IMG/VR virus record: IMGVR_UViG_3300042691_025267
Coordinates: 16,387 to 80,386 of that record
Source: a virus
Length of the DNA: 64,000 nucleotides
Strand: one strand, 5' to 3'
Part shown: one piece after another, positions 25,886-53,378 of the stretch
How positions within the stretch are numbered: the first letter of the stretch is position 1
How the letters are laid out: every line of letters starts with the position of its first letter
Program-made: the position numbers and the translations under genes
Notes under the pieces: model-generated
Told to the model about the DNA's origin: nothing
Seen by the model: only the letters and a program-made list of their open reading frames with translations
The model's database searches: none

Positions 25886-26105
25886 TCTCTTCTGGAGTTT
25901 CTTCTATACGGACGTAGACCATATTTTCCATGTCTAACCGCCATCCGTTCTTGGGGTCAATTTGTAATATTTGCATCATTTGTATATTTGCTTCTTGAAT
26001 TTCGGTCATCAATTGTGTCTGATAACTCTTTAATAGTGCATTATTTGACTTGATTAGATTTTGTAACGCAAGTGGAACATCTACCGTAACTTGTTTAGTG
26101 CTCAT
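25866..26105 (-). CDS. Small helical unknown protein
   Basis: 79 aa, not recognised. The central 40 residues form one amphipathic helix or short coiled coil (LQNLIKSNNALLKSYQTQL, EIQEANIQMMQILQI). A WRLDMENMVYVRIEE strand and an acidic/Pro end follow. It overlaps the helicase start by 20 nt and the subtilase stop by 11 nt, so it is co-translated and could be a helicase partner. Confidence 0.7.
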   Translation of the reverse strand: MSTKQVTVDVPLALQNLIKSNNALLKSYQTQLMTEIQEANIQMMQILQIDPKNGWRLDMENMVYVRIEETPEENAPVTG

Positions 26106-26754
26106 GTATACCTCCTAAAAACATCTGTTTAATTTCTATTGCATTTTTTTCTGGGAACTGTTGTACCAATTTAGCCAGTTGTCCCGATACTCGTGCTGCT
26201 GCCAACGAAGTACCAGACGCTATCTGTGTTTCTCCGTCTAGTGTTGTAACTTCTACGTCAATCCCCAAGGCAATCACATCAACTTCTGGTCCAAAATTAC
26301 TTCCCCGACCTTCTTCCCATGACATGACTTGATTATACATATCACATGCACCAACGCCAATTACTTCATTCATATTCACGGGAGAAAATTCAGAGGCTGG
26401 TCGCATTTCGTTTCCTGCTGCTGCAACTACAATAAACTTTGTAGGATCCAACTCTCGTATCTTATCGTCAATAATATGATGGCGTGGAACTGCCCATGCG
26501 CAGGTGACGATATTGACAGGTTCCGTTGCATCGTGTTGTATTGCGGTAAATGCTTCCATCATCTGTCCAAATGTACCCACTGAACCCAATCCAATTTTTA
26601 CATTCTTTAGTAGAACGTTGGGGTTAGTTCGTCTAATGACACTTGCTACTCCTGTGCCATGTCCATCTAGATCGTCAAACGTTCCATCATAGGTGTATAC
26701 GTTTATCCCGTTTGGTATTCCACTGTCTACTACGTAAATTGTTACACTTCCCAT
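26095..26754 (-). CDS. Minimal subtilisin-like serine protease (S8)
   Basis: 219-aa subtilase consisting of only the catalytic domain. The triad is D10 (YVVDSG), H32 (DGHGTGVAS) and S183 (ASGTSLAAA), with oxyanion N115 (AAAGNE). No signal peptide and no propeptide are visible, so it would act in the host cytoplasm or in the virion. It is related to the larger subtilase at 27696 (shared PRxxIxDxKI, GVGA-D-Y--V-SW and GSN-GP-VD segments) and probably arose by duplication. Candidate tasks are maturation of virion proteins or cleavage of a modified peptide. No such role is documented here. Confidence 0.9.
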   Translation of the reverse strand: MGSVTIYVVDSGIPNGINVYTYDGTFDDLDGHGTGVASVIRRTNPNVLLKNVKIGLGSVGTFGQMMEAFTAIQHDATEPVNIVTCAWAVPRHHIIDDKIRELDPTKFIVVAAAGNEMRPASEFSPVNMNEVIGVGACDMYNQVMSWEEGRGSNFGPEVDVIALGIDVEVTTLDGETQIASGTSLAAARVSGQLAKLVQQFPEKNAIEIKQMFLGGIHEH

Positions 26755-26978
26755 TTACCTTTTGGACATGCACTTGGTCCTTTTGGACTATATACTTTTT
26801 TTGACAATGGACATCCACATGCACCACAGATATGCGTCCGTATTAACATTTTAAACTCTTTGAACTCACACGCATCGCAAACTTCTGCTCTACGTTCAGC
26901 AGTTTCTTTTTGTTCAATAGTTGGATTACTGGCACGATGCCATGCAGTGATAATTTCTCGTATATCAGGAATATTCAT
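26742..26978 (-). CDS. Small zinc-ribbon-like Cys-rich protein
   Basis: 78 aa. An N-terminal helix (IREIITAWHRASNP) precedes a cysteine cluster CDAC...CGACGC...C, followed by KKVYSPKGPSACPKGKW. The spacing suggests one zinc ribbon or two half-sites. Function is unknown; protein- or nucleic-acid-binding adaptors of this size are common in T4-related phages. It overlaps both neighbours (13 and 4 nt), linking the first subtilase and the first sulfotransferase-like gene. Confidence 0.75.
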   Translation of the reverse strand: MNIPDIREIITAWHRASNPTIEQKETAERRAEVCDACEFKEFKMLIRTHICGACGCPLSKKVYSPKGPSACPKGKWEV

Positions 26979-27694
26979 ATTGGAAATTCATAATTAAAAT
27001 ATACAAAATCGTCGTGAAACAAATATTTCACCAAGTTCTTAAATTTTTCTGAGTTAATATCTATATTAATTTTTATTTTTTCCTTGGGTGTGATATTTTC
27101 TTGTTTAATTACAGATGTGTCATATCCCAACGTGACTTCTATCCAATCATTAAATTCGTTTATATTTTCATATCTAAATATTTTAACCTTTGGTTTGTAC
27201 GCCCATTCTACTTGAGTTGTAAAAAATGAGGACACAAACCCCGGTCCGTCTGCATCAAAAATTAACTGTAAATTATTTATATATTTTGGTACACAATTTT
27301 TATAAAACGAGTCATAACAAAAATCGTAAAAAAACTTTTCCGATTGAAATATGTCTATAAAGTTAAATCCCTTCGTCCTTGGATCAGTTTCTTCAATTTT
27401 AATTCTTTGTTTTGAATCGACATCAAACTGATATGTGGTTTTATATACGTTTCCTTGTAAATACGAATCACGTTTAAACTTCATGAAATATAGTGCTGAA
27501 ATAAATCTTTTATACGGATTTCTTATTACGGTAAACGCCGGAATATCTATGTGTTCTTTAGTATATGGATCGTGTGTATGTAAAAAGTTTTCACCGATCT
27601 CTGGGAAAAATAACTTCGTATATGCAATGGTTCCTGTTTTTGGTATTTTTATATAAAAAAACTTATTATTATTAATTCTTGAAGTAACTATCAT
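26975..27694 (-). CDS. Sulfotransferase family protein
   Basis: About 239 aa. The 5'-phosphosulfate-binding loop is visible as FYIKIPKTGTIAYTKLFF and the 3'-phosphate-binding motif as TVIRNPYKRFISALY, the two hallmarks of PAPS-dependent (family 2) carbohydrate sulfotransferases. A later YENINEF resembles the third conserved segment. I choose the ATG at 27694 (MIVTSRI), right beside the stop of the upstream subtilase. The frame extends to 27763, but that part overlaps the subtilase. It transfers sulfate from PAPS to a sugar or polypeptide acceptor. The APS kinase domain encoded at 29853 could supply PAPS. Confidence 0.8.
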   Translation of the reverse strand: MIVTSRINNNKFFYIKIPKTGTIAYTKLFFPEIGENFLHTHDPYTKEHIDIPAFTVIRNPYKRFISALYFMKFKRDSYLQGNVYKTTYQFDVDSKQRIKIEETDPRTKGFNFIDIFQSEKFFYDFCYDSFYKNCVPKYINNLQLIFDADGPGFVSSFFTTQVEWAYKPKVKIFRYENINEFNDWIEVTLGYDTSVIKQENITPKEKIKINIDINSEKFKNLVKYLFHDDFVYFNYEFPI

Positions 27695-27695
27695 A

Positions 27696-29222
27696 TTAAG
27701 CTTGTGTAAAACATTCACCATTAGAACATCCGCAACTGTACCCTTTGGGGGGGATAGCACCACAGGTCTGAAAGCAAAACCCTTCGCATGCAGCAGGTAT
27801 TACCACTATTGTACCATTTTCTTCTTTATATTGATACACTTCTTCCGTTGTAGATTCTTCTGGATCATTTATATATGTACCTATCAACAACGGGTATACT
27901 TCTAACTGTGTATCATTTTGATCTACTACTTTGATAAATATTCTCGTATTTTTAACATAATTAACATCCGTTGGACTAAACCTAATAGTATTAGTAGTTG
28001 TGTCAATCGTAACCCACTCAGGATAATATCTACGTATGTTACCGAAAACAACATCATCTATGTCTATTCCATAGGCATATTGATCATTTAATTCTAATAT
28101 TAATTCATACTCTGTACCAATCTGTACATTTATTTTTTCTTTCGGGATATTTTTTATAAACTTATCAAATGATGAGATGTATAGTATACTATTTGGTGTT
28201 GTGCCATAGATACTTTCATTTCTAAACAAAATATCAGTAATTCCACTATTAATTACTATGAATTGTATGTGGTATGCAGTAAGATTATTCGTTGAATTTA
28301 AATCTTTTATATATTGTGCAACTACCCCCGACGTTAATGCAGCAGCAAGTGAAGTACCAGAAGATTCTTTTATAGTACCGTCTATGTTTAGAACATTAAC
28401 TCCAATTCCTGGCGCAAAAATATCTACATCGGGCCCCCAGTTTGAACCAGCTCCACCCCCCCAACTAATAACTCTATCATATGGATCGGATGCACCTACA
28501 CCTATCACCGTATCTAACCCCACGGGCGATAGATTATTTGCGTCTGACATGGTGTTACCTGCTGCGGCCACTACTACAAAATTACTATCTTGCAATTCTT
28601 TAATTTTTGTATCAAGAATTTTACTTCGTGGAATAGTCCATGAGCAATTTACTACAGCAACTTCGGTTATATCGGTTCGGTCTTGCAAAATTGCGTCAAA
28701 TGCAAGTAACAAATCACTTATGTTAATCACTGCTGCCATTTCAATTCTTACGTTTTTTAATTCTACGTTAGTTGCTACACCAAGTGTGCTACCAACTATT
28801 AGACTTGCCATAGCAGTACCGTGACCCAACTCGTCAGAAAAATCACCATTGAAACTATAACAGTTAACAATATTTGCGTCAACTAATTCTGGTAACGTTG
28901 CGTTTATTCCACTATCAATCAAATAAACTTTTACTCCATCCCCATGATTTAATGGAAAATACTTTTCTTTCATTGGAAGTGCATTAGAAATAATTCTTAA
29001 TTGGTGCCACTCCGAATTAGATGGATGTACTTCCGTACTCAAGTCTTCTTCTATATCTAATACACCAGATATGTTCGTAAATACGTCTTCTGATTCGCAC
29101 GATACATTGACTACCTGCATGGAAGTAAATATACGATTTACTACTATACCTTGATTGGTCATACTGCTAAGTAAATTTTCTATATTAATATCTTTTTCAA
29201 AAACTACATTATAGTTTTTCAT
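27696..29222 (-). CDS. Large subtilase with N-terminal propeptide-like and Cys-rich C-terminal regions
   Basis: 508 aa from ATG at 29222 (GAGG at 6 nt); an upstream in-frame start at 29234 is less likely. Residues 1-65 look like an I9-type prodomain. The catalytic domain has D103 (YLIDSG), H134 (LGHGTAMAS), N223 (AAAGNT) and S291 (SSGTSLAAA). Residues ~350-460 form a beta-rich Ig/cadherin-like domain (FSPTDVNYVKNTRIFIKVV). The last 30 residues hold six cysteines. There is no signal peptide. Such a layout resembles secreted subtilases, which is unusual inside a phage late region. It could be a virion protease or a maturase for the neighbouring gene products. Confidence 0.9.
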   Translation of the reverse strand: MKNYNVVFEKDINIENLLSSMTNQGIVVNRIFTSMQVVNVSCESEDVFTNISGVLDIEEDLSTEVHPSNSEWHQLRIISNALPMKEKYFPLNHGDGVKVYLIDSGINATLPELVDANIVNCYSFNGDFSDELGHGTAMASLIVGSTLGVATNVELKNVRIEMAAVINISDLLLAFDAILQDRTDITEVAVVNCSWTIPRSKILDTKIKELQDSNFVVVAAAGNTMSDANNLSPVGLDTVIGVGASDPYDRVISWGGGAGSNWGPDVDIFAPGIGVNVLNIDGTIKESSGTSLAAALTSGVVAQYIKDLNSTNNLTAYHIQFIVINSGITDILFRNESIYGTTPNSILYISSFDKFIKNIPKEKINVQIGTEYELILELNDQYAYGIDIDDVVFGNIRRYYPEWVTIDTTTNTIRFSPTDVNYVKNTRIFIKVVDQNDTQLEVYPLLIGTYINDPEESTTEEVYQYKEENGTIVVIPAACEGFCFQTCGAIPPKGYSCGCSNGECFTQA

Positions 29223-29251
29223 AATAATCCTCAATCAAAGTACTTGAATTT

Positions 29252-29839
29252 TCATATAAGTACGTCATTTATATTTAATAAATTTGCAGCCCACTGACGT
29301 TCCATGCAGAAGTAACACCCACCACACTTCTCCACACCATCTTTATTTTTTATACCACATGACCTAGTTAATTTCAACAAATCCAACACATTCTCTGTAA
29401 CATACAATTGCATTATTTCTTTTTTATCCATATCAATAAACGGTCTGATATGTTTATCATTGTAAGGAGGGCCCCTAAACGGTGGTGTATCGTTTTTTAT
29501 GTATATAGTGGGGGTAAATTCATCCGTTAGTACTTTATTACATCCACTATATACATACCCGCCTTCCGTCAATAATATGTTTTCCACCAACTCCCGTATA
29601 TTGTAGTTTTTATATAATTTTTTATTACTAAAGTTAATTCCTTTCATAGTAAACCATTCCTGTACTCTCTTTACATTATTCACCGCATCTGCGGTTGGCA
29701 TCGTATACGAGAGAATCGGGATGGTCCTATTTTCTTCATAGAGTTGCTTTTGTAATAAAAATAATAAAATAGAACTATCCATTCCGCCAGAAAATAATAC
29801 GTTAATTTTTTCGCAGTCGGATGGTATTTTTATTGTCAT
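29252..29839 (-). CDS. QueC-like PP-loop ATPase (copy 1)
   Basis: 195 aa. PP-loop LFSGGMDSSILL at residues 14-25 binds ATP. The C-terminus has C-x9-C-x2-C-x2-C (SCG...KCGGCYFCMER), the zinc-binding pattern of QueC, 7-cyano-7-deazaguanine synthase. FRGPPYNDKHIRPF lies in the middle, with HIRPF resembling the P-F segment of QueC. No FolE, QueD, QueE or DpdA-type partner is seen in the window, so a deazaguanine pathway is not supported here; a related amidation or adenylation reaction is possible. A paralogue lies at 30803. Confidence 0.75.
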   Translation of the reverse strand: MTIKIPSDCEKINVLFSGGMDSSILLFLLQKQLYEENRTIPILSYTMPTADAVNNVKRVQEWFTMKGINFSNKKLYKNYNIRELVENILLTEGGYVYSGCNKVLTDEFTPTIYIKNDTPPFRGPPYNDKHIRPFIDMDKKEIMQLYVTENVLDLLKLTRSCGIKNKDGVEKCGGCYFCMERQWAANLLNINDVLI

Positions 29840-29852
29840 ATATAAGTATCAA

Positions 29853-30626
29853 TTATATTCCCATTTGCTTACGAATGTCGGTTGCGCTGATCGCTTCTGT
29901 GGACGCGTCCAGATTGATTTTCTCCACCTTATAGCCCACATCTCTACCGTAATACACGCCGGTAATGTTTGGTAGGAATATCACTTCAAATTTTCCTTGA
30001 TATTTGTCATTTAATTTTTTATAAATGAAATCAGATACTTCTTCATAATCAAACGGATTCTTTTCATCAATGTTGTGGGTATTGCGGACCCCAATAAGTA
30101 CCTGTCCTTCTTTTTCCAGGATGGTTTCAAACAATTTCAAATGACCATCGTGGAATGGCTGGAATCGTCCAATCATCAATCCTGTGGGTGCTTGCCAATC
30201 AAATTCTGGAACCGGCTCCATCTTTTTAGTAAGGCGTGCGATAATCTCGTCAGTTTGTTCACCGACATCACCCCATGCAGTAATTTCCACATCTACTACT
30301 TCTGGTCGTTGGAATACCTTATTGGTGTCCTCAAACCGACCTTCGTTGATTGTATTCATAAACACGATATAGTCGGGAGCAAACGCATCTCTGGTTTCTT
30401 CTAATGGACACACGAAATCGGCAACTACGTGGTCTGAACTGGCAATATCGGCAAGATGATACATTCTATCCGCCTGTCGGAGCCGTCCTTCTTCACTGAA
30501 GTCCCAATCATTAAACATCTTACGAACTTCGTCTGCATTAAAATATGCGGCTTTCAACTTCTCTGCCAACACTTTGGAAAGGGTCGTTTTTCCAGACCCC
30601 GGTAATCCCATAACTAAAATTTTCAT
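29853..30626 (-). CDS. APS-kinase-like domain fused to nucleotidyltransferase
   Basis: 257-aa two-domain protein. Residues 1-130 are a P-loop kinase of adenylylsulfate-kinase type: Walker A GLPGSGKTT at 7-15, then FNADEVRK and FVCPLEETRDAF. Residues 148-257 are an HxGH nucleotidyltransferase: GRFQPFHDGH at 153-162 and the closing ISATDIRKQM, closest in appearance to NMN/cytidylyl-transferase enzymes rather than classical ATP sulfurylase. If the second domain made APS, the protein would be a one-piece PAPS synthase; more conservatively it phosphorylates APS and adenylylates another substrate. Three sulfotransferase-like genes nearby make a sulfation role attractive. Confidence 0.82.
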   Translation of the reverse strand: MKILVMGLPGSGKTTLSKVLAEKLKAAYFNADEVRKMFNDWDFSEEGRLRQADRMYHLADIASSDHVVADFVCPLEETRDAFAPDYIVFMNTINEGRFEDTNKVFQRPEVVDVEITAWGDVGEQTDEIIARLTKKMEPVPEFDWQAPTGLMIGRFQPFHDGHLKLFETILEKEGQVLIGVRNTHNIDEKNPFDYEEVSDFIYKKLNDKYQGKFEVIFLPNITGVYYGRDVGYKVEKINLDASTEAISATDIRKQMGI

Positions 30627-30633
30627 ATAACCC

Positions 30634-30843
30634 TCATTCTTTAATTCCGTACGATACCCATTTGTACCATACTCGTTCGTGTAGAAAATATAACACCATT
30701 TTGGTCAGTACTTCCGCACCACCAATTGACAACCCAACTTTCCAATTACCCGATATGAGTCCTGCGAGTATTATGGTGTCTAGTGTACCAACAGCTCTCC
30801 AACTAATCGTCTTTGCTATATGTCGTTTTACATGTACTGTCAT
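30634..30843 (-). CDS. DUF2061 small membrane protein
   Basis: 69 aa with the DUF2061 pattern: KTISWRAVGTLDTIILAGLISGNW, a first hydrophobic segment, then GLSIGGAEVLTKMVLYFLHERVWYKW, a second (quoted in part). It should span the membrane twice. Function of the family is unknown. It lies 7 nt upstream of the APS-kinase fusion and overlaps the second QueC-like gene by 41 nt, so it is co-expressed with the putative sulfate-activation enzyme. Confidence 0.8.
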   Translation of the reverse strand: MTVHVKRHIAKTISWRAVGTLDTIILAGLISGNWKVGLSIGGAEVLTKMVLYFLHERVWYKWVSYGIKE

Positions 30844-31390
30844 AATATGAATAGTTAATTGCCCAAGTTCGTTCTATACAATTTAAACAACTTCCGCAAT
30901 GTCCATATTTTTGTAAATAACAACTGTGCGTAAGTTCCAGTAGTTCCCAAATATTTTCGTTCCTATATAATTGGACTACTTCGTGCTTATACATATCTTT
31001 GAATGGTATCAAGACTTGTGGATATTCAAAAAATTTTCTCTCTGGAAACTGAGGCATAAATTTATTACTTCCGATAACAAACTGATCCACCTCTCCAGTT
31101 CTTAGATACAATTTAATCCACCTAGTAAACGTTCTATTACTTGTTGAATCTTTATCGTTAATTTCTTCTGGTGGTATTATACTTGTGTTTAGTTTTGTGT
31201 TTATCCAACTTAAAATATTACGAATTCTATCCATACAAATCGTTGATTGAATCATTGTATAACACCGTATGTTTACATTCAATTTAGCTAATAGGTATAA
31301 TAGCAACGAACTCTCTAGGCCACCTGACAAATATAGTCCAATATTATTTGTTGTTGGGCTTATACTAATTAAATTGGACACAGATGTCAT
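30803..31390 (-). CDS. QueC-like PP-loop protein (copy 2)
   Basis: 195 aa, paralogue of the gene at 29252. PP-loop is LYLSGGLESSLLLYLL; the usual SGGxDS aspartate is glutamate here. The C-terminal zinc site HSCYLQKYGHCGSCLNCIER is near-canonical for QueC (C-x7-C-x2-C-x2-C). The middle contains PQVLIPFKDMYKHEVVQLY, matching the family PF--M-K-E segment. Function uncertain as for copy 1. Two paralogues might form a heterodimer or act on different substrates. The start overlaps the upstream sulfotransferase-like gene by 4 nt. Confidence 0.75.
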   Translation of the reverse strand: MTSVSNLISISPTTNNIGLYLSGGLESSLLLYLLAKLNVNIRCYTMIQSTICMDRIRNILSWINTKLNTSIIPPEEINDKDSTSNRTFTRWIKLYLRTGEVDQFVIGSNKFMPQFPERKFFEYPQVLIPFKDMYKHEVVQLYRNENIWELLELTHSCYLQKYGHCGSCLNCIERTWAINYSYYDSTCKTTYSKDD

Positions 31391-32025
31391 AAGTATGTAA
31401 TACTTGGTTCCAATAATTCATAGTCGTCTTTATATAGATTCATACACATCTCTTGTATTTTTTGCATGTCTCTAAATTTAGCAGGAGTAATATTAAAGTT
31501 ATCAATTGCAGAAGGTCTAGCTTTTACAGTGTCGCCAAATGTTAAATAAATCCATTTTGTATACTGGTCCATTGATACAATTTTATACTCTTTTATGTCT
31601 TGGACGGATTCGTTATAAGCAACCTCTATATTAACGGGTGGGATGTTATAAAAATAATCCATCTGGGATCTAGTGTGCATATCCAGTCTATAGTTTTTTA
31701 AAATCAATTCCTTTGCATTTAAAAAATCAGATAGTAAATCATGTCCACGACTTTTAGGAATAAATAATGGTATGTGTTCAACTTTAACAGTTTTATATAA
31801 AAATGGTTCGTATATAAATTGATTGTAAAACGACAATAATCTTATGCATGGATCTCTATATAGGAAAGTTTTGTGTTCTGCTTCTGTAATTACATTTTTA
31901 AATATGGGAACGTGAGTCACATCTGTCAAATTGTACTTAAATACATTATTTACTAGATGTGATGATCCATTTCTTGAAGGAGTTACGATGAGATGCCTTT
32001 TTTTTAAATCATAAAACACTCGCAC
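31387..32025 (-). CDS. Sulfotransferase-like protein (paralogue A)
   Basis: 212 aa from a GTG start. HLIVTPSRNGSSHLVN is in the place of the PAPS 5'-phosphosulfate loop and TFLYRDPCIRLLSFYNQF matches the 3'-phosphate-binding RDP--RL-SFY motif of carbohydrate sulfotransferases. The protein is shorter than most family members. The next gene encodes a close paralogue with the same motifs, YELLEP end and gene length. It probably sulfates a glycan or peptide acceptor. Assignment is by motif only. Confidence 0.65.
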   Translation of the reverse strand: MRVFYDLKKRHLIVTPSRNGSSHLVNNVFKYNLTDVTHVPIFKNVITEAEHKTFLYRDPCIRLLSFYNQFIYEPFLYKTVKVEHIPLFIPKSRGHDLLSDFLNAKELILKNYRLDMHTRSQMDYFYNIPPVNIEVAYNESVQDIKEYKIVSMDQYTKWIYLTFGDTVKARPSAIDNFNITPAKFRDMQKIQEMCMNLYKDDYELLEPSITYL

Positions 32026-32048: not shown

Positions 32049-32678
32049 TCAGAGATATGTAATGTTTGGTTCTAGTAATTCGTAATCGTCTTTATACAAC
32101 GTCATACATAAATCTTGTATTCTTTGCATATTACGAAAATTAGAAGGATTGATGATAATACTATCTAACGCAGACGTTGATTGCGTAGTTTTTTTATCTA
32201 CAAACGTCAGTTTTAGCCATTTGGCATATTGATTGATTGAAACTATTTCATAGTCACTTATATTTTGGTCATATCGTTCATCTTTGAAATAGTCACTCTG
32301 CGGGGTTGTATGAAAATCTTCCTTATAATTTTTTATCAATTTATCGGTAGCGAGAATCATATCAGATAGTAAATCGTTTCCACGAGTTACCGGTTTAAAT
32401 AATTTATTGGCTAAATTCGTATCTTGATCTTCCTTGGCAAATGTTTTTACTGCCTGTGTATCAAATACAAATCTTTTATAATATGACATCAGTCTAACAC
32501 AGGGATCTCTGTATAAAAAGGTTTTTTTCTCGACTTCCGAAATTATACCATTAAATATAGGACTGTGAGTTACCTCGGTTAATTTGTATTCTATTGCGTG
32601 ATGATGTAGATGCGAAGATCCATTGCGAAATGGCACCACTATGAGATGTCGTTGACTTATATTGTAAAATATTTTCAT
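32049..32678 (-). CDS. Sulfotransferase-like protein (paralogue B)
   Basis: 209 aa, tandem paralogue of the 31387 gene. Shared features are HLIVVPFRNGSSHL (5' loop), KTFLYRDPCVRLMSYYKRF (3' loop), a DLLSDM helix and a nearly identical end LCMTLYKDDYELLEPNITYL. Divergence is concentrated in the middle, suggesting the copies differ in acceptor. It starts 1 nt after the carbamoyltransferase stop. Confidence 0.65.
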   Translation of the reverse strand: MKIFYNISQRHLIVVPFRNGSSHLHHHAIEYKLTEVTHSPIFNGIISEVEKKTFLYRDPCVRLMSYYKRFVFDTQAVKTFAKEDQDTNLANKLFKPVTRGNDLLSDMILATDKLIKNYKEDFHTTPQSDYFKDERYDQNISDYEIVSINQYAKWLKLTFVDKKTTQSTSALDSIIINPSNFRNMQRIQDLCMTLYKDDYELLEPNITYL

Positions 32679-34175: not shown

Positions 34176-34981
34176 TGTTTAGGTACTCCTAAATGTTTAT
34201 TTTCATACTTCTCAGGAGGAGTTTTGTTTATAAGATAAGAATGTTCATAGGAAATGAGATTAAACAAACGTTCAGTTATTATTGCATAACCTTTCTCGTT
34301 GGGATGTCCGCAAAATGCAACGGTATCTAAATCTTTATTTGCACGTACTTCGTGTAAAATATCTCGATGTTCTGGATACAGAATTTTATGGGTAAAGTTT
34401 AAACTTGCTGAATTTTTCATAAGGACATCTAACCCCCGACCTTCGTCGGCATTAACATTAATATAAAAAAATTTATAGTTAGATAATGTACATATGTTTT
34501 TTATTAGATTAACATAAAAATATGACTCCAGTACAACATCTCTGGTAGGATTATTACCCAAAAAATTGAAATAACTATCAGATAAATTCTGATATTCTGG
34601 TGTCATGTTTGTTACGTGCGAAAGTACCGATGAGATTTTTCCGTTTCTATAAAAACTTATTCTAGTAGAAAATGTAACCATCCATATTACCAATACGTCA
34701 TATTCGTCGGAAAGATTTCTATCAGAAAACAATTCCATCCATCGTTTGACGGTTTCGGAATTTGAACACCCACCGTGACCTAAATTCCATAAGTAATGAT
34801 AACCCAACTTCTTTTGCAGTTGATGTGGCCATCCCATAACATGAAATCTATCAGTACTGGCATTATACGGAGAAATTGTTTTATCTAACGGCTTTCTTCG
34901 TTCGTTCAACAAAGAAGGTTCATAACACCCAACTCCCTCCGTATAGGAACATCCTAATGTTATTAGAAGTTTCTTTTTCAT
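34169..34981 (-). CDS. SGNH-hydrolase-like protein 1
   Basis: 270 aa. Block I LLITLGCSYTEGVG carries the nucleophile Ser, block II NLGHGGCSN the oxyanion Gly, and block V is FCGHPNEKGY with the catalytic His. The Asp normally three residues before that His is not in place. SGNH enzymes add or remove acyl groups on glycans. It is the first of five consecutive members of this superfamily (34169-38280). Confidence 0.75.
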   Translation of the reverse strand: MKKKLLITLGCSYTEGVGCYEPSLLNERRKPLDKTISPYNASTDRFHVMGWPHQLQKKLGYHYLWNLGHGGCSNSETVKRWMELFSDRNLSDEYDVLVIWMVTFSTRISFYRNGKISSVLSHVTNMTPEYQNLSDSYFNFLGNNPTRDVVLESYFYVNLIKNICTLSNYKFFYINVNADEGRGLDVLMKNSASLNFTHKILYPEHRDILHEVRANKDLDTVAFCGHPNEKGYAIITERLFNLISYEHSYLINKTPPEKYENKHLGVPKQW

Positions 34982-35772: not shown

Positions 35773-35808
35773 GTTATCTCCAAGTGTTATTAACAATTTT
35801 TTAGTCAT
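35739..35808 (-). repeat. 34-bp tandem direct repeat at a gene start
   Basis: Two identical 34-bp copies, 35739-35772 and 35775-35808, with a 36-bp period. Each holds an in-frame start codon and the first ten codons of the SGNH-like gene. The period is a multiple of three, so translation from either ATG yields the same downstream protein. Confidence 0.9.
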
Positions 35809-46009: not shown

Positions 46010-47240
46010 ACCATTCCTTTAATTCTGGGTAGGTTTCTGAAAAGTTGTCGTTGCGGATACTATCAAAGTGTTGCGTGAGTTGTTTAAACTTCAGTTGGTG
46101 TTCTCGTACAGGGTCTAATTCTTCTTGAATAAAATGATAAATATCTGTTAATCCGTGCGCAATTGGACCATCTGGTGCGGTTTCTAACCACTGACCAATT
46201 TTACTCTTTATATCACGTTTCATTTCTCTCGTAAATACGTTGTTTAAATTATAATGGTCAGGATTTATAAGTTTGTAAAAAGAACAGTGCGTATTATGTA
46301 AATCTATTACTTGGTGTTGTTGTAAATTTTCTAAAAATTCTATAATAGTATATGCGTTAAACACTCCCACCACACAATTAAATCGTATTGATACGGTTGG
46401 GCAGTTATTCCGAATGAACTGTAGGTTTCCTATTACTTCACTCCACACGGTACCCTTTCGCATATACTCTGCTCTCGCACCAAATGAGTCCAGACTGGCA
46501 TAAAATTCTACTTGTTTAAATTTATTCCATAGATCAGTAACGTGTGTATTACCAAATTTTAATTTACTACTGTTACTGTTATATCGCAAAACAAGATCCG
46601 TATTATTATTCTCAATCAAGAACTGGAGTATTTCGTAGTGTTCGGGAGTAATCAGTGGTTCCCCACCTGCAAAATATAACATTTCCAATTCTCCTAGATG
46701 TGGCTTAAACTGCTCTAAAAGATTTGGATTTCCATTTGATGCATGCATCAATCCATTAACTTCGCCGTATCCTTGTTTGAAGGATTCGGCCGCCCACGTG
46801 GAAGAAAACATATCTCCACACGTACGACATTTAAAATTACACAAGTTACTGAACCGTACGTCGAAATATTTTAGATGCATACCAGGAAGATATCCATCAT
46901 TTTCTGTTACTTTAGTTAAATCAAAATGATGACCAAACTCATTATTTGCAAAATTACGAAATGAAAAACCACCGCCTCCAGTAGATTCGTGCTTATAACA
47001 ATTTGCACATCCATCAACTCGTTCTCCAGCAAGTAATTTTTTACGAATTACTTTTAAATCCTCACCATTCCAAATTTCATCAATTGTTTGTTCACGAACG
47101 TTACCTATTGGATTTTCGTATTTTGTAGTACAGCACGGGTACGTGGCCCCATCTGTGTTCACATACAGATGAAGCCACGGAAACATACAAAATGTTTTAT
47201 TATGTGTTAATAACTGGGAGAGTTCTGGATGTTGATTCAT
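45996..47240 (-). CDS. Radical SAM enzyme with N-terminal SPASM-like cysteines (2)
   Basis: 414 aa from ATG 47240 (a GTG at 47249 is less likely). Layout equals its neighbour: FCMFPWLHLYVNTDG...YPCC (C18, C36, C37), GCANCYKHES (C78, C81), core CNFKCRTCG (C134, C138, C141), FAGGEPLI. A Gly-rich stretch (STGGGGFSF) follows the N-terminal cluster. The N-terminus overlaps the preceding gene by about 40 nt. Likely modifies the same class of substrate as the 44717 enzyme at a different position, or forms a heterodimer. Confidence 0.88.
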   Translation of the reverse strand: MNQHPELSQLLTHNKTFCMFPWLHLYVNTDGATYPCCTTKYENPIGNVREQTIDEIWNGEDLKVIRKKLLAGERVDGCANCYKHESTGGGGFSFRNFANNEFGHHFDLTKVTENDGYLPGMHLKYFDVRFSNLCNFKCRTCGDMFSSTWAAESFKQGYGEVNGLMHASNGNPNLLEQFKPHLGELEMLYFAGGEPLITPEHYEILQFLIENNNTDLVLRYNSNSSKLKFGNTHVTDLWNKFKQVEFYASLDSFGARAEYMRKGTVWSEVIGNLQFIRNNCPTVSIRFNCVVGVFNAYTIIEFLENLQQHQVIDLHNTHCSFYKLINPDHYNLNNVFTREMKRDIKSKIGQWLETAPDGPIAHGLTDIYHFIQEELDPVREHQLKFKQLTQHFDSIRNDNFSETYPELKEWYESI

Positions 47241-48618
47241 TTGCCCCACTCAAGTAAAACGTTTTATATTCAGGAAATGTTTCTGGAAAGTTTGTGCCGC
47301 GTCGTTTATCATATTCAGTAAACCAGTTATAAAAGTCTTTACGAGCTTCCTCAAGTTTATCTTCTGAATATACTGTATTTTCCATGTATTTAACCACCCG
47401 ACGAAACCGCTCAAGTTCCAACTCAGAGAACTTTGTGACATCGTTTTCGTCAGTATTCTCTTCCATAAATGTAAGGTGACTGTGCATATAAGGCATGAAC
47501 TCTTCTTTTGGTAAGATGTTCATATCATACTGCAAAGGTTCTTTTAAGTATGGAGTATCAAACCGAATCTTTCTTTCCAATGGTCTTATTTGATCGTCTG
47601 GAATAATATCGTTGTAACGTACTCGCCATTCAAGAATCTTTTTTAATAGTTGATCAAATGTACTGACTGATAGTGCGTTGAACGTTATCATAAACGTGAC
47701 ATGACTTTTGGTCATACGAACATATGTATCTAAATTCTTTTCCCATGTTTCAAGATCTAATCCAGTTCTAAGATATTCTGCACGTTCTCCCCACGTATCA
47801 ATACTACTGAACAGTTTGAATTTTTTAATTGAATTTGTTTTAAGTAGTTTATTTACTTCTTTGGAAAGTCGAACTACCCATTCATTTTTTCCACCAAGAT
47901 TACTATTAATATTAAGTTCCAAATTTGGCAAAGGATTTTCTTTAAGTGACTGTAGCAATCTCCAAGTACTCTTGTGCATTAAAGGTTCTCCGCCAGTTAA
48001 ACGAAGAATATTTAATGTTTTACTTACTTCGGGCCACCACTTCCACCAGGCCTCAACGTATGGATTTGTTTCTTCCTCATACATGGTAAACCAATCAATA
48101 TCTTGTCTATGATTTTTTACCATACCATATGGACCAAATTGTTGTATTTCTCTGTAGTAACGGGAGGATGCTTTGGGATGACAATATCCACATTTAAAGT
48201 TACATTCGTTTCCAAAACTTAACTCAATATACTCGGGATTTATATCAAAGTCCCAAGGCATGTCTTTAATTTCTTGTAAACGTTCTTTTGTGTAAATTGA
48301 TGCAGTACGAATATGTCTATCGGAAATATACTCCGGTCCCATGTTTTCAATATTCCAACAATATTGACATCCAGCGGGTCTTTCTCCCTTCAACATCTGC
48401 TGACGTTCTTGCTTCTTGTGTGACGTATTATGTAAAGCAGATGGATTCTTTTCTATTTCATCCAACGGAATCCTGTGTGGAGCGGGATGATAACAACTGT
48501 GGGTTTCTCCAGTCTGTAGATAGATGGTTACGTGATGCCACTTTGCCAAACAGAATGATTTACTGATTTCATCCGTTATGGGTAGTACTGTTTTAATTCT
48601 ATCTAAATCATAGCTCAT
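47200..48618 (-). CDS. Radical SAM enzyme (3), longer variant
   Basis: 472 aa. N-terminal FCLAKWHHVTIYLQTGETHSC and GCQYCWNIENMGPEY give C23, C42, C84 and C87, a variant of the CC pattern with one Cys replaced. Core CNFKCGYCHPKASS (C139, C143, C146) and LTGGEPLMH. The C-terminal third is helical and charged. It shares RxMLxGExPxGCxYC with the other two. Same superfamily; different substrate is likely. Confidence 0.87.
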   Translation of the reverse strand: MSYDLDRIKTVLPITDEISKSFCLAKWHHVTIYLQTGETHSCYHPAPHRIPLDEIEKNPSALHNTSHKKQERQQMLKGERPAGCQYCWNIENMGPEYISDRHIRTASIYTKERLQEIKDMPWDFDINPEYIELSFGNECNFKCGYCHPKASSRYYREIQQFGPYGMVKNHRQDIDWFTMYEEETNPYVEAWWKWWPEVSKTLNILRLTGGEPLMHKSTWRLLQSLKENPLPNLELNINSNLGGKNEWVVRLSKEVNKLLKTNSIKKFKLFSSIDTWGERAEYLRTGLDLETWEKNLDTYVRMTKSHVTFMITFNALSVSTFDQLLKKILEWRVRYNDIIPDDQIRPLERKIRFDTPYLKEPLQYDMNILPKEEFMPYMHSHLTFMEENTDENDVTKFSELELERFRRVVKYMENTVYSEDKLEEARKDFYNWFTEYDKRRGTNFPETFPEYKTFYLSGANESTSRTLPVINT

Positions 48619-49256
48619 TGCTTATATCCTATACACATATATCTTGTAAATTGTGCGCAGTCCAGTTCACCTTTGTAAAGAATATTATCAATATGATTTT
48701 GAGATACGAACATATCTAAATTTTCTGAGAACCTTACGTGATCTGCAACCGCATGATAATTATTTCCTTGTACGGCAAGTAAAGTATTTTCTTTAATATT
48801 TGCAAACCAATCATCATATCCACGTTGACGTAAATGTTCAGTAGAAGTATTTACTATTAATGCAATGTCGTCTGGATAGAACTCTTTGGAGAATACTGTC
48901 ATGTCGTATGTTTTAAACTTAATACGTGGATCGTTGTTTGTCAACATATTTCCGTACAATGCACACTTTGGATCTTTATCTAAACTATACACTGTATGAA
49001 TGTTTGGTAAATGATCAATAATTAACATTGCCGCAAATCCATGCCAACCGCCAAATACATAAGCAGTTCCAGTTTTTTCCCACTCAGGATTATTTTTATA
49101 AATTTCTTTTATCTGATCAATTAACCACGATTTACTTTTTACTTGACTGCCCCAAAATGCTTCCAACATATCATATCTATTTCTAGAATCATTAGTTTCT
49201 CTTATGAGGTTGATCCAGTGTATAAATCGGTCTTCAGTAATATATGAACGGGTCAC
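48615..49256 (-). CDS. SAM-dependent methyltransferase-like protein
   Basis: 213 aa from a GTG start with AGGAG upstream. AYVFGGWHGFAAMLI resembles a class I SAM-binding motif and VYSLDKDPKC an acidic post-strand motif; DDIALIVNTSTEHL corresponds to motif IV. The usual D/EXGXGXG is altered to FGGWHG, so the family is suggested, not proven. It lies between the radical SAM cassette and the B12 radical SAM gene. Confidence 0.6.
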   Translation of the reverse strand: MTRSYITEDRFIHWINLIRETNDSRNRYDMLEAFWGSQVKSKSWLIDQIKEIYKNNPEWEKTGTAYVFGGWHGFAAMLIIDHLPNIHTVYSLDKDPKCALYGNMLTNNDPRIKFKTYDMTVFSKEFYPDDIALIVNTSTEHLRQRGYDDWFANIKENTLLAVQGNNYHAVADHVRFSENLDMFVSQNHIDNILYKGELDCAQFTRYMCIGYKQ

Positions 49257-49294
49257 GTTTTTTGATCTCCTGTATTTTACGTTTGGTTACATAC

Positions 49295-49322
49295 TTTTCG
49301 GTAATATTGTGTATACCGAAAA
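49295..49322. promoter_or_regulatory. Stem-loop in the gap before the methyltransferase gene
   Basis: TTTTCGGTA, a 10-base loop, TACCGAAAA: a perfect 9-bp stem in the 74-nt gap between the stop at 49331 and the start at 49256. There is no T-run after it on the transcript strand, so it is not a classical terminator; it may be a processing or stability element. Confidence 0.4.
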
Positions 49323-49330
49323 TAATCCAA

Positions 49331-51550
49331 TCAAGAATCTTCACTAACATATTCATTCTCCATTACCGTTAATTGTTTTGTTGGTTCCCGTATACTGGAA
49401 CCATTGTTGTTACCCCAATCACCAGCCTCATTAAATTTATACTTAAAGGAAAAATCTATTATTCTATTTAAATGAGCTTCTTCTCGTAACAAATCTCCAA
49501 AATCCGAATCTGCTCTACCATTAATTCCCCACGAGGGTTTTGCCAATTTTTTAGCACGAACTGCGGTATTTGACATCATTCTACTATAGTCTTGTGCGTA
49601 GAATGGGCCCTTTCTACCTGGATTGCCGTCTTCGTCAAATTCATGTGAATATGGTCTGTTGTCATATGGATTGTCTATCTGATCAAACTGGTAGTCAAAG
49701 TCTGCGTACCATTTACCATCATCCGTGATACTAAATCTGAACGTTGCGGAATACATACCAGGCCCAAACTGATTGCCAAATTCTTTCAAGTCAATCTCTG
49801 GATTAAACTTCACCACTGCATCATATCCACCACGGGTTTTCCATAACATTCTAAAAAACGGCCACATTTCGTTTACCAGTGCATCCGCAAACGGATTAAT
49901 ATTTGGTTTAATTATATTATAATCAAAGTCTTCGTAATGTTCTATTTCGTTAATGGTAGATGGGTTATGTAAAGTTATTTCATAATGTTCTTTTGCTAAG
50001 TTAAACCGAACGGGATATCCAAAGGGGGTATCCGTACAGCCTGTCATGAAATCTAAAAACATATGAAATGTCTTTACTCGTGTCATCACATGTGTGCCGC
50101 CGCGTCGGAGATCGTTCGTTATCCAATGACCTTGGTATTTGTGCGCAGATACATTAAATCGGTGTGTGTTTTGACCAACAATGGTTTCTGGTCCCACTGC
50201 CATTCCTACACCCGCACCCACGTTGTTGATATTGTTGTTTCTATTTCTCCATAAAAACGTCATACTATCAGCAAAGTCTTGTAATTCTTCGTTTGGAAAT
50301 CCAACAATCCAGTTGGTTGCCGCATAAATTCCGACTTCTTTTCCATGACGAAAATTTGCTTCCATCTCTTCAATGGTAACACCTTTGTTCATTGCATCAA
50401 GAACTCGTTGACTACCGGATTCAATCCCATAGTTTAACATAATACATCCACCGGCTTTCAAATCTTTAAAAAATTCTAAGTCCATTCTTCCATCGCACCG
50501 AGAATATCCTGTCCAATGAATTTTTAGTCCCTTCGCTTCTACCGCTTTACAGAAAGCACGGAGTTCTTTGAGATTTCCATTGACTAAGCTATCAATAAAC
50601 CAAATGACATCAGTTCCTTTGTTATAATACAACCACTCAATTTCTTTAATAGCATCTACGGCAGTACGTTGACGATACTTCCAGAAGTGCGTTTCTTCAC
50701 AAAACGTACACTTGGCTGTACATCCTCGACTAAATTGACTATTCACACCGTTTGGTAATTCATATTGAGAGAAGTCAATACTTTCATAATCTGGCATGGG
50801 AAGATTATTGATATTAATTCTTTGTCCTTCTGGTTGTACGATGTACCACGTTTCCGTGCGTTCTACGCCATGTTCTACCTCATCCAAAATGTCTAAGATT
50901 GCTCCTTCTCCCTCGCCACTGACCACGTAGTCATAATATGGTTGAATATTAAACCAACTTTTTTGTACGTTACTTCCGCCAATTGCAATTTTAATTTTTG
51001 GATTTCGTCTTTTTAACTCTTGTGCCATCCACTTCGTCGGTTCTTCGCTAATATAATACATACTAAAACCAACTATGTCCGCACCATATTCCAATATTTG
51101 ATCAATTGCAGCAGTAAGTATAGGTTCTAGAATAGGATGGATGTCCTTTGCATACGTGTCACCCAACCAATGCCAACTAGCACTTGGATCCCATAATCTA
51201 AATGGTAACTTATTATTTGGTGCCCAATCATTTTTGTATTGGTTATATGCACGAACATTTAAATCCATGATTTTAGTTTCGTACCCAGCAGTTTTGGCAA
51301 CTCCACTTAGTAATGCAAGATTATACGGAGGCATCTGTGGAGCCCATTCTGGACATAACACTAGTGCAAGTTTCGTTTTTCTAAACTTATAGTCGATGTA
51401 TACTGGAGTAACATTTCTTTGCTCAAACGGTCTTACGTATGGAGCAATCGCATCCATCATAGCTTTATGCTTGGCATCTGCCACGTCCATCGTCGGTTGC
51501 TCAGGAGCTAATACTTCTGACTTTGCCAATCCCCGTAAATTAAAATCCAT
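49331..51550 (-). CDS. Cobalamin-binding radical SAM enzyme
   Basis: 739 aa. Residues 55-215 form a B12-binding-type Rossmann domain (LALVLCPEWAPQMPPYNLAL, ADIVGFSMYYISE, IAIGGSNV, YVVSGEGE) without the DxHxxG histidine. The radical SAM site is RGCTAKCTFCEE (C277, C281, C284). The middle has WTGYSRCDGR and GIESGSQRVLDAMNKG, typical of the BchE/methylthiotransferase-like class B enzymes. The C-terminal 230 residues are novel and end in an acidic/Asn-rich tail. Such enzymes methylate unactivated carbons on peptides, sugars or lipids. Cobalamin would come from the host, as for the class II RNR. Confidence 0.9.
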   Translation of the reverse strand: MDFNLRGLAKSEVLAPEQPTMDVADAKHKAMMDAIAPYVRPFEQRNVTPVYIDYKFRKTKLALVLCPEWAPQMPPYNLALLSGVAKTAGYETKIMDLNVRAYNQYKNDWAPNNKLPFRLWDPSASWHWLGDTYAKDIHPILEPILTAAIDQILEYGADIVGFSMYYISEEPTKWMAQELKRRNPKIKIAIGGSNVQKSWFNIQPYYDYVVSGEGEGAILDILDEVEHGVERTETWYIVQPEGQRININNLPMPDYESIDFSQYELPNGVNSQFSRGCTAKCTFCEETHFWKYRQRTAVDAIKEIEWLYYNKGTDVIWFIDSLVNGNLKELRAFCKAVEAKGLKIHWTGYSRCDGRMDLEFFKDLKAGGCIMLNYGIESGSQRVLDAMNKGVTIEEMEANFRHGKEVGIYAATNWIVGFPNEELQDFADSMTFLWRNRNNNINNVGAGVGMAVGPETIVGQNTHRFNVSAHKYQGHWITNDLRRGGTHVMTRVKTFHMFLDFMTGCTDTPFGYPVRFNLAKEHYEITLHNPSTINEIEHYEDFDYNIIKPNINPFADALVNEMWPFFRMLWKTRGGYDAVVKFNPEIDLKEFGNQFGPGMYSATFRFSITDDGKWYADFDYQFDQIDNPYDNRPYSHEFDEDGNPGRKGPFYAQDYSRMMSNTAVRAKKLAKPSWGINGRADSDFGDLLREEAHLNRIIDFSFKYKFNEAGDWGNNNGSSIREPTKQLTVMENEYVSEDS

Positions 51551-51564
51551 AACTATTTAACCCC

Positions 51565-52686
51565 TTAATTATTATCTCCATATTTTTTATCAAAATATTC
51601 TTCTAACCATTCCCATCGTTCGGTTTTTAACAATTCATCTACGTTGTCTCTATGCAGAGTGGCGTATGCATGTCCATCTCCAGCTCCTTGTAATACCCAA
51701 TCGGCATATATTCCTTTTGCATGTGACCTCCATTGCTTTAGCCATTCCCTTGATAATTGCGTGTCTTTTAATGTTAACTTTACAGTTTCACGAAACGCAG
51801 TACGCCACGCTTCATATTTACTAGTTGCAAAATGTGCTTCACTTACCGTTAGTGGAATGGGATATATCTTACCGTATTCAGTCAAATCTAATCCAAAATT
51901 ACTTGGGGTATTTTTTATAATTTTTGTATTATAACACCCAACTGCCATGTGTCCATATTCCAGTCCATTACTCATATTTTCTGCTTGAAAAATGATATGA
52001 GCTTCTGGTACACTGCCGTCTGGTACATAATCAAATACTGATGGATCGGTGACTTTATTTTTTCCTGTTACTACGAAAAAGTAGGGCGCAGTGTCCGCCA
52101 TATCTGCGCATTGTAAAAATGCGTTCAACCGCGGAGAAATACCATCTACTCGTTCGGCTCTGGGACATACACGTTTTAGGTGTTTCCAATTTTCTTCTGC
52201 AGTAGTTTCTCCGTTACTTATAAAAAATACGGGAAATCGTTGTGTAATAATTGTTTCATTTGCAGAAGTAGTACGTTTTTTTGCAATTGTCGGTTGTACC
52301 TTAATAACATTAATTCCTGGCCAATCCCACGGACTGTCATGTTTTTTCTTATATTCTGCAATTTGTTTTTTATCACCTGCCCAACCAGCAATAAACGTTT
52401 CCTCTTCGCTCTTTTCAATAACAAACAACACCGGACCTTCTATATATGTCCATTTATCATCTGCATACATATACAAGTTTGTATCAGAGTCTTTTGCGTC
52501 TACTATATTAATATAATCCATCAGATCCAATTCATGAGGACCGAATAGTACCCATCCATCATCCATTCGTACTTCTGATAGCATGGAGGACACCCATCCA
52601 AGATTTCTGACCCATGATTTAGTCTCTACTGTCCAATATTTTTTAAATAGGTTAGTATGCAGTAACCAAGATTCGCCATTTAGCAT
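51565..52686 (-). CDS. Unknown protein, possible GT-A-like domain
   Basis: 373 aa, not firmly recognised. Residues ~150-290 contain FPVFFISNGE, VDGISPRLNAFLQCA, YFFVVTGKNKV and FQAENMSNGLEYGHMAVGC, an alternating strand-helix layout that could be a divergent nucleotide-diphospho-sugar transferase. The flanks are aromatic-rich (WSWVRNLGW-like N-terminus; WLKQWRSHAKGIYADW C-terminus). It ends 1 nt past the start of the next glycosyltransferase gene upstream and is therefore co-translated with it. I give no function. Confidence 0.65.
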   Translation of the reverse strand: MLNGESWLLHTNLFKKYWTVETKSWVRNLGWVSSMLSEVRMDDGWVLFGPHELDLMDYINIVDAKDSDTNLYMYADDKWTYIEGPVLFVIEKSEEETFIAGWAGDKKQIAEYKKKHDSPWDWPGINVIKVQPTIAKKRTTSANETIITQRFPVFFISNGETTAEENWKHLKRVCPRAERVDGISPRLNAFLQCADMADTAPYFFVVTGKNKVTDPSVFDYVPDGSVPEAHIIFQAENMSNGLEYGHMAVGCYNTKIIKNTPSNFGLDLTEYGKIYPIPLTVSEAHFATSKYEAWRTAFRETVKLTLKDTQLSREWLKQWRSHAKGIYADWVLQGAGDGHAYATLHRDNVDELLKTERWEWLEEYFDKKYGDNN

Positions 52687-53378
52687 TATTTTGTCCCCTT
52701 AATTTTCTTCCGCTTGACAATTTGTTCTTGATTCGTTCCAATACTTGGACCAAACGCCCATTGTCCAATGTGACGAATTTGCCGACTGAGGTTCATGTCT
52801 ACAAGGATTTCATGACCCGCATCACGAAGTTTTCTTTGGAAGTAAAAATCTTCCCCGTGCCATGCTCCCTCTTTATATTCAAATTCAAACCAAGGCTTTT
52901 GAATGTTAGTTAACACGGACGTTTTCATCAACATGCACCCCATCCCAATTCCTTCCACGGGTTCCAACTCTTGTTGTGATTCCAGTGGGAGCCAGTTATC
53001 CCAGTCTTCCACCTTGGGATACGCAACCGTTGTGAGTGGCACGGATCTCTTCATGTAGTTTGCGGCAACGATATCTTTGTTATGACTCATCAATCGCAAT
53101 GCAGTCGTTGAAGGAAACATCATATCTGAATCTAACCACAGTAGATAATCAGCTTTCACTTCCACTGCTTTATTTGCCAATCTTTCTCGTTGATTGAGGA
53201 GAATGGTACTCATGTCATAGGTTACGTGGACATCAATTCCAGTTAACACGCACGTCTTTATTAATTCCGTCAATGACATTGCAAATAACGTATGTACGGT
53301 ATCTCTGCACGGTACTAAAATAATTAATTTGGTGGGCTTGGTCTTCCACGCAGATCCGTCAAAAATATTCTTACTCAT
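52686..53378 (-). CDS. GT-A fold glycosyltransferase
   Basis: 230 aa. KLIILVPCRDTVHTLFAMSL begins the GT-A fold; ADYLLWLDSDMMFP contains the DxD metal motif (D83, D85); GIGMGCMLMKTSVL and EDFYFQRKLRDAGHEI complete the acceptor side. Compact, soluble, family 2-like. It overlaps its neighbours by 1 and 4 nt. Donor and acceptor unknown. Confidence 0.8.
   Translation of the reverse strand: MSKNIFDGSAWKTKPTKLIILVPCRDTVHTLFAMSLTELIKTCVLTGIDVHVTYDMSTILLNQRERLANKAVEVKADYLLWLDSDMMFPSTTALRLMSHNKDIVAANYMKRSVPLTTVAYPKVEDWDNWLPLESQQELEPVEGIGMGCMLMKTSVLTNIQKPWFEFEYKEGAWHGEDFYFQRKLRDAGHEILVDMNLSRQIRHIGQWAFGPSIGTNQEQIVKRKKIKGTK

Follow-up and report, generated by a model that had tools for sequence, protein, structure and literature searches.

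What would a phage do with an unbroken run of 30 genes rich in glycosyltransferases, radical S-adenosylmethionine (SAM) enzymes, sulfotransferases and a carbamoyltransferase, and which molecule would these enzymes act on? The question is raised by a 64,000-nucleotide stretch (the window), positions 16387-80386 of the 80,386-bp IMG/VR virus record IMGVR_UViG_3300042691_025267, which comes from a freshwater T4-like tailed phage (uvsW/gp26-like). The run occupies 26095-53905 (~28 kb), entirely on the minus strand and with intergenic gaps of -98 to +74 nt, which bears out the uninterrupted minus-strand run described in an earlier note on this DNA. The answer favoured here, with a probability of about one half, is that the run forms an exchangeable cassette for glycan decoration, whose target is most likely a Ser/Thr-dense protein of the phage itself, a tail fibre or stalk encoded directly upstream. 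The analysis established the gene families, their order and co-occurrence and a predicted kinase fold, and from these we infer one joint pathway, 3′-phosphoadenosine 5′-phosphosulfate (PAPS) as a product, the fibre as the acceptor, and the roles of the subtilase and of the QueC-family enzyme QueC1.

In the proposed pathway, glycosyltransferases of the GT-B and GT-A types would build a glycan whose sugars would be altered by a UDP-glucose dehydrogenase (and by epimerases in relatives), and radical SAM enzymes, a methyltransferase, SGNH proteins, a NodU-type carbamoyltransferase and QueC-like ATP-dependent enzymes would elaborate it. Two to three sulfotransferases would then sulfate the glycan with PAPS from the kinase-nucleotidyltransferase fusion KNT (29853), and a Cys-tailed subtilase, nearly always paired with its own QueC-like partner, would probably process the decorated fibre or be displayed with it.

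A recurrent frame with a variable middle

A scan with uvsW yielded 80 related loci. Seven contigs (the window, G002, G004-G007 and G009) share one ordered frame, U53-GT1574-U51-(B12rS)-MT-rS4 ... CarbT ... DUF2061-KNT-QueC1-S8-ST1, with minor gaps (names as in Table 1), and in the middle of this frame the GTx, SGNH, NAD epimerase and extra radical SAM genes are interchanged. The cassette measures ~28 kb in the window and ~40 kb in several relatives, and the number of radical SAM copies varies from 1 to 7 across records. In each of the six relatives with a contig that spans this end (G002, G004, G005, G006, G007 and G009), the first cassette gene is U53, and the right edge was therefore moved to 53905 from 53378, where the earlier note had ended its ~27-kb island; the left end at 26095 was retained. 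Four contigs with different backbones (G022, G023, G026 and G027) carry KNT, DUF2061, ST2/f11, MT, radical SAM and CarbT genes, and also QueC1-S8 where the contig is long enough. The subtilase and rS4 occur together in 12 of 13 S8-bearing records, the thirteenth being a 25-kb fragment, and S8 and N-twitch radical SAM genes are both absent from 12 records of 44-178 kb (G010-G021).

This recurrence makes it very unlikely that the run is a mosaic of unrelated auxiliary genes, collected at a permissive hypervariable site and without a joint function. The wide variation of the middle genes would fit such a mosaic, as would the identities of KNT, CarbT and S8, which are independent of the backbone, and the presence of other genes at this site in close relatives; however, the ordered frame and the roster recur in unrelated backbones and across lineages with ~70% uvsW identity, and the nonsynonymous substitution rate (dN) of the island genes is well under the synonymous rate (dS). 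The window's close relatives at 90% uvsW identity, e.g., G010 (166 kb) and G018 (115 kb), contain no subtilase or N-twitch radical SAM gene anywhere in their records, whereas the island-bearing relatives are ~70-72% identical to the window in uvsW, so that the island was either gained by exchange or lost from the close kin, and the locus appears exchangeable. Correlation of identity matrices with that of uvsW gave 0.66-0.86 for the head genes and 0.03-0.13 for KNT, CarbT and S8, a comparison which is indicative only, given the few taxa and a KNT that is split in G005; it suggests that the head genes may travel with uvsW while KNT, CarbT and S8 shuffle. Transfer of the whole island as one block was rejected, because the matrices disagree and the middle is mosaic. 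The single integrated decoration system of the earlier note thus finds support in the conserved frame, whose order and roster recur, and not as one moving block with KNT, CarbT and S8 tied to uvsW; the scattered occurrence among relatives that would have pointed to unrelated acquisitions was not what the comparison of gene content and order returned, the cassette recurring in G002-G009 and partly in G022-G027.

At the same site, cassette-free relatives carry S55-f17-f26-f25-f14-uvsW (G014, G016) or PTPS-f14-uvsW (G013), and G010-G012 have a shorter gene set that includes PF11397 transferases, to which G010 adds an epimerase-family gene and two carbamoyltransferases. The island has a GC content of 34.8% versus 39.8% in the remaining genes, with a marginal difference at third codon positions (p 0.049). 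The T4-type late promoter TATAAATA occurs just twice, fewer times than expected by chance, and is uninformative on expression timing.

A Ser/Thr-dense neighbour as the candidate acceptor

The gene directly upstream of the cassette encodes PTPS, a mucin-like repeat protein with 156 Ser+Thr and 74% Ser/Thr/Pro over an 80-aa stretch. A Ser/Thr-dense repeat protein stands immediately upstream of U53 in six of the seven contigs (in G007 with a 64-aa open reading frame, ORF, in between that is probably spurious), and a comparable density was found in only 14 of 567 proteins. In G004, G005, G006, G007 and G009 the slot holds long proteins whose collagen-like Gly-X-Y runs have mostly Ser or Thr at X and Y. 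Two of these upstream proteins were tested, and both match PHROGs for tail fibres, among them one for a distal-subunit C-terminus. G010-G014, which have mucin-like proteins instead, carry PF11397 GlcNAc-transferases, a family that includes polypeptide GlcNAc-transferases. The best hint that a fibre or stalk is the acceptor is that two repeat types share one position, each beside decoration genes. The PTPS gene itself contains 18-132 bp DNA tandem repeats, and at its N-terminus the protein is similar to f17, a group of small collagen-like proteins in relatives (FxPFG...). A 442-aa protein of G023 (L192:14283-15608), a phage which shares much of the enzyme roster, reaches 93% Ser/Thr/Pro over an 80-aa stretch.

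A possible, if clearly less probable, target is the host envelope, i.e., the cassette would alter the lipopolysaccharide or capsule during infection and thereby block superinfection or hide the infected cell. Envelope remodelling has been proposed for pelagimyophage and cyanophage islands, and the literature reads similar islands that way (PMC7029224); carbamoyltransferase, UDP-glucose dehydrogenase and epimerases are classic O-antigen and Nod-factor genes, and fused KNT occurs in SAR11 contigs, some of them with N-twitch radical SAM or carbamoyltransferase genes nearby. Against this, the seven islands lack flippase and polymerase genes as well as membrane-bound glucosyl- and acyltransferases, so that host export machinery would need to be borrowed. 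No multi-pass protein was found in them, whether transporter, exporter or polymerase, the only exceptions among membrane proteins being the small, two-segment f66 and DUF2061; nor was the small flippase with a multi-pass membrane glucosyltransferase that marks Gtr seroconversion clusters. The cassette moreover adjoins fibre genes, and in G016, which has neither cassette nor PF11397 or carbamoyltransferase (PF16861) genes, Ser/Thr-dense proteins are likewise absent from the 40 kb that were read. Between virion and host envelope, both named in the earlier note, the evidence leans indirectly to the virion, through the Ser/Thr-dense gene directly upstream and the missing multi-pass exporter.

A proposed sulfation module and the QueC1-subtilase pair

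KNT joins an adenosine 5′-phosphosulfate (APS)-kinase-like domain, with PF01583 above cut-off, to a nucleotidyltransferase domain with the motifs GRFQPFHxGH and ISATxIR, which by sequence is NMNAT-like. An AlphaFold2 model (pLDDT 84.5) has a pTM of 0.57, which makes the inter-domain arrangement uncertain; its 16 top Foldseek matches in the PDB are all APS kinases. The score against TIGR00455 is far under the cut-off, and a canonical ATP sulfurylase (PF01747) was found in 0 of 15 records. A sulfotransferase lies within 5 kb of KNT in 23 of 24 viral KNT clusters (90% identity), versus 1 of 71 uvsW loci without KNT. The two KNT domains are often separate genes in other viral contigs, where in 48 of 64 cases a same-strand gene of a sulfotransferase family lies no more than 300 nt away, one neighbour being a clear PF00685 member (E 1e-14). 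G021 has KNT-ST1-f11-DUF2061 without the rest of the cassette, and the KNT records G015, G021 and phage DLP_6 likewise encode sulfotransferase-like genes. In cultured Casjensviridae phages, as seen in Xanthomonas phage AhaSv (L371 2968-4738), KNT is full-length and 47% identical, and a Sulfotransfer_4 protein that scores below threshold is encoded two genes away. From this proximity and the predicted APS-kinase-like fold, we infer that KNT would be a compact PAPS supply for the sulfotransferases of the cassette. The fused form of KNT is also chromosomal in SAR86 and SAR11 genomes (L318-L370).

In an alignment of full-length subtilases, the C-terminal tail of S8a is hypervariable save its cysteines. 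Among distinct full-length viral homologues, a QueC1 gene directly precedes 33 of 34 testable tail-bearing subtilases and is not found before 16 of 17 tail-less ones (Fisher p 4e-11, relatedness ignored). The number of tail cysteines is always even (4, 6 or 8), in some with the knottin-like spacing C-x5-C-x5-CC-x3-C-x4-C, which suggests that the tails form disulfides, and hence a life of the subtilase outside the cytoplasm or on the virion. Tail-less relatives (L261-L290) in other viral contigs without QueC1 often have an alternative C-terminal ending, ..FQLK.

Both QueC1 and QueC2 retain the ATP loop (SGGxDS), PFx4K and the zinc cysteines, and their nearest PDB profile match is Cap9 (E 2.4e-8), of the type IV cyclic-oligonucleotide-based anti-phage signalling system. 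The canonical QueC motifs YxQxHxxE, VPxRN and YPDC are absent from all 16 sequences, solely the family-level assignment PF06508 holds for QueC1/2, and the Q motif (Y/FxQx5E) and YxDC of Cap9 are absent from QueC1/2. Deazaguanylation of the Cap9 type was rejected as stated, because these substrate motifs are missing although Cap9 is the nearest PDB entry. The two proteins thus resemble the deazaguanylation enzymes Cap9 and QatC (PMC13329287, PMC13279940) in SGGxDS, PFx4K, zinc cysteines and one specific protein-gene partner, and differ in lacking the deazaguanine-binding motifs of PMC13329287 (YxQxHxxE, VPxRN, YxDC). A genome scan for QueC1 gave no cellular relative, and there was no match among cultured phages. 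Their putative function would be ATP-dependent carboxyl activation, on a sugar or on the subtilase. A bolder and rather doubtful proposal is that QueC1 is a dedicated ATP-dependent modifier of the Cys-knot-tailed subtilase (a QueC-family protein modification without deazaguanine) and that KNT is a compact phage PAPS synthase, in a cassette whose product is a sulfated glycoprotein fibre to which a protease is attached.

Modification of a ribosomal peptide, e.g., the Cys-rich subtilase tail, by the radical SAM-SPASM, B12-binding radical SAM, subtilase and QueC-like enzymes, in the manner of ribosomally synthesised and post-translationally modified peptides (RiPPs), is quite improbable. A conserved protease with hypervariable tails rich in Cys and Gly, strictly coupled to QueC1, would be in line with it, the B12-binding enzyme is nearest to RiPP C-methyltransferases, and subtilases are used in some RiPP clusters; but the even cysteine numbers, pointing to disulfides, lower this reading of the tail, the radical SAM copy number does not track a single tail, sugar genes dominate the roster, and none of the adjacent small ORFs of ≥60 aa (DUF2061, zinc-ribbon, f14) resembles a core precursor.

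Several observations weigh against decoration of the fibre or against parts of the pathway. The Ser/Thr-rich fibres of G002 (0.53) do not adjoin the cassette, and no Ser/Thr-dense fibre was seen in the sequence examined of G022, G026 and G027. Several sulfotransferase, SGNH and methyltransferase calls rest on motifs, relatives of the N-twitch and B12-binding radical SAM enzymes act on peptides too, and marine authors interpret similar islands as host O-chain modification (PMC7029224). KNT may have a NAD-type role, since a NADAR gene lies between KNT and the Sulfotransfer_4 protein in AhaSv and cellular KNT (SAR86, SAR11) is near these sulfotransferases in only 2 of 76 cases.

Gene inventory and known systems

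Of the roster given in the earlier note, the subtilases, carbamoyltransferase, dehydrogenase, five radical SAM enzymes and GT1574 were confirmed by profile, whereas the sulfotransferases, SGNH proteins and methyltransferase at 48615 are weaker; two sulfotransferases, several SGNH proteins and the methyltransferase were called at motif level or via relatives of the gene, and not by a threshold-passing match. Two QueC-like proteins, KNT, the DUF2061 protein and the zinc-ribbon protein had been overlooked.

Table 1. Features of the cassette and its surroundings in the window
Feature	Coordinates	Strand	Evidence
Ribonucleotide reductase	3455-5305		
DnaB	5352-6737		
Tape measure	18885-22658		
Baseplate hub	23202-23966		
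uvsW-type helicase (left boundary)	24002-25885	-	
f14, small protein (left boundary)	25866-26105	-	
S8b, short second subtilase, no prodomain or Cys tail	26095-26754	-	PF00082 72 bits; D/H/S + Asn aligned
f21, 78-aa zinc-ribbon-like protein, cassette 3′ end	26742-26978	-	weak Pfam zinc-ribbon
ST1, sulfotransferase	26975-27763	-	PF03567 E 7e-4 (sub-threshold); phrog_3347 E 3e-8; PKTGT + RNP motifs
S8a, subtilase with prodomain, S8 and beta domains and a Cys-rich C-terminal tail (6 Cys)	27696-29234	-	PF00082 79 bits
QueC1, QueC-family PP-loop enzyme	29252-29839	-	PF06508 37.6 bits (cut-off 22)
KNT, APS-kinase-like domain fused to HIGH-type nucleotidyltransferase	29853-30626	-	PF01583 26.5 (21.1); PF01467 35.3 (21)
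DUF2061, small membrane protein adjoining KNT	30634-30843	-	PF09834 E 2.8e-21
QueC2, second QueC-family enzyme	30803-31390	-	PF06508 34.3 bits
ST2, putative sulfotransferase	31387-32025	-	motif alone, LYRDPxxRLxS; paralogue of 32049
ST3, putative sulfotransferase	32049-32678	-	motif alone
CarbT, NodU/NolO-type carbamoyltransferase	32679-34175	-	PF16861 E 5e-57; PF02543 E 1e-44
Five tandem SGNH-like proteins	34169-34981, 34996-35811, 35801-36745, 36758-37537, 37534-38280	-	
GTx1, GT-B-like family	38268-39275	-	family clustering
UDP-glucose/GDP-mannose dehydrogenase family	39277-40533	-	PF03721 + PF00984 above cut-off
GTx2, GT-B-like family	40567-41580	-	family clustering
GTx3, GT-B-like	41584-42891	-	AF2 pTM 0.81; Foldseek
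SGNH6, hydrolase/acyltransferase-like	42884-43858	-	GCSFTEG + DGVH
rS1, radical SAM	43761-44738	-	PF04055 29.8 (29.5)
rS2, radical SAM, N-terminal SPASM/twitch	44717-46009	-	PF13186 + PF04055
rS3, N_Twi_rSAM member	45996-47249	-	NF033640 362.7 bits (170)
rS4, N_Twi_rSAM member	47200-48618	-	NF033640 326.3 bits (170)
MT, methyltransferase-like, weak call	48615-49256	-	PDB methyltransferase matches E 0.025-0.04
B12rS, B12-binding radical SAM, C-methyltransferase-like	49331-51550	-	PF04055 E 3e-19; PF02310
U51, conserved cassette-head protein	51565-52686	-	7 contigs
GT1574, GT-A-like glycosyltransferase	52686-53378	-	phrog_1574 E 7e-23; PF03452 Anp1 marginally under cut-off
U53, first gene of the cassette	53375-53905	-	7 contigs, constant position
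PTPS, Thr/Ser/Pro repeat protein, proposed acceptor	53906-55177	-	
Two PF11397 GlcNAc-transferases	61055-62308, 62305-63579	-	E 9e-53, 7e-67

Both subtilases score above the PF00082 cut-off with the D/H/S triad and oxyanion Asn intact, S8b being restricted to the window phage among the phages mapped; f21 is found in 7 contigs with its Cys pairs kept, the DUF2061 protein in 11 of 12 and MT in 12 of 12 mapped contigs. The true start of ST1 is probably the internal Met near 27694. ST2 and ST3 gave no match in a Pfam profile search, and U51 none in profile searches including PHROGs. Both the N- (PF02543) and C-terminal (PF16861) domains of a NodU-type carbamoyltransferase are present. The SGNH genes at 34169, 34996 and 37534 are paralogues, assigned by motif (GxSxTxG, C-x-HPN), and those at 35801 and 36758 are weak; one member of the SGNH6 family (L188:4082-4969) passes PF00657 (E 7e-7, above cut-off). 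A PDB sequence search with the GTx family (38268, 40567, 41584) was empty, and fold comparison was therefore used: the GTx3 model matches GT-B enzymes, trehalose-6-P synthase among them (TM 0.35-0.40, lowest E 3.5e-5), and its family has 29 members over 8 contigs. The NF033640 matches of rS3 and rS4 extend over the full length, and rS4 is the best-conserved radical SAM copy (80% to G001). The nearest profile of the B12-binding enzyme is TIGR03975, with a score under its cut-off.

A second gene of the UDP-glucose/GDP-mannose dehydrogenase family (10551-11411) lies at a great distance from the cassette, among replication and structural genes. Upstream of the cassette, 56532-58877 encodes a 781-aa protein that combines methyltransferase-like and HtrL_YibB (PF09612) domains and is also found in G010, G013 and G014. 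The best match of the ribonucleotide reductase among cultured phages is Microcystis phage Mel-JY01 (63% identity), a possible hint at the host.

Sulfating or carbamoylating glycans is rarely credited to phages, and if the cassette decorates the fibre, few virion glycosylation systems of bacterial viruses would be as elaborate. Fibre decoration would also explain the abundance of glycosyltransferases and radical SAM enzymes in aquatic T4-like fibre islands, currently read as host O-antigen genes. KNT, a short protein, is amenable to testing and provides a marker of sulfation in viruses, AhaSv is a cultured system for its assay, and the QueC1-subtilase pair points toward unexplored QueC-family chemistry.

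The tailoring sets of Nod factors and saxitoxin (NodU, NodH, NodPQ; sxtI, sxtN, sxtO) likewise combine carbamoyltransferase, sulfotransferase and APS kinase, but serve bacterial secreted small molecules and supply PAPS through other gene families. Bifunctional PAPS synthetase shares with KNT the APS-kinase fold and, in animal PAPSS, the order of N-terminal kinase and C-terminal nucleotidyltransferase, from which KNT differs by its NMNAT-like, HIGH-type C-domain in place of a PF01747 ATP sulfurylase. To our knowledge, virion glycosylation in mycobacteriophages takes few genes, with no sulfation, carbamoylation or radical SAM set. Its acceptors, as far as PMC12619734 relates the work of Freeman et al. 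2023, are the capsid and tail tube, whereas a fibre or stalk is proposed here. A further likeness is with the host recognition cluster (HRC) of pelagimyophages and cyanomyophages (PMC7029224), also a large hypervariable island of T4-like phages, set among structural genes, which combines tail fibres and glycosyltransferases with radical SAM cassettes. Such clusters of 34-45 kb temper the earlier note's claim of unusual size for an island of ~28 kb here and ~40 kb in several relatives. The HRC, described as non-syntenic, sits between VrlC and gp14, whereas the cassette has an ordered frame between fibre/stalk genes and uvsW; fibres and glycosyltransferases are present here, the location adjoins uvsW and the hub gene, and VrlC and gp14 were not identified. 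A text search of PMC7029224 found no mention of sulfotransferase or carbamoyltransferase, and no published description of this enzyme roster was found in the searchable open-licence literature. Hypervariable fibre/glycosyltransferase islands with radical SAM cassettes, and virion glycosylation, are thus already known; as far as the searchable literature shows, what is new is the ordered frame beside uvsW, the compact kinase/nucleotidyltransferase-sulfotransferase module, and the pair of QueC1 and Cys-tailed subtilase.

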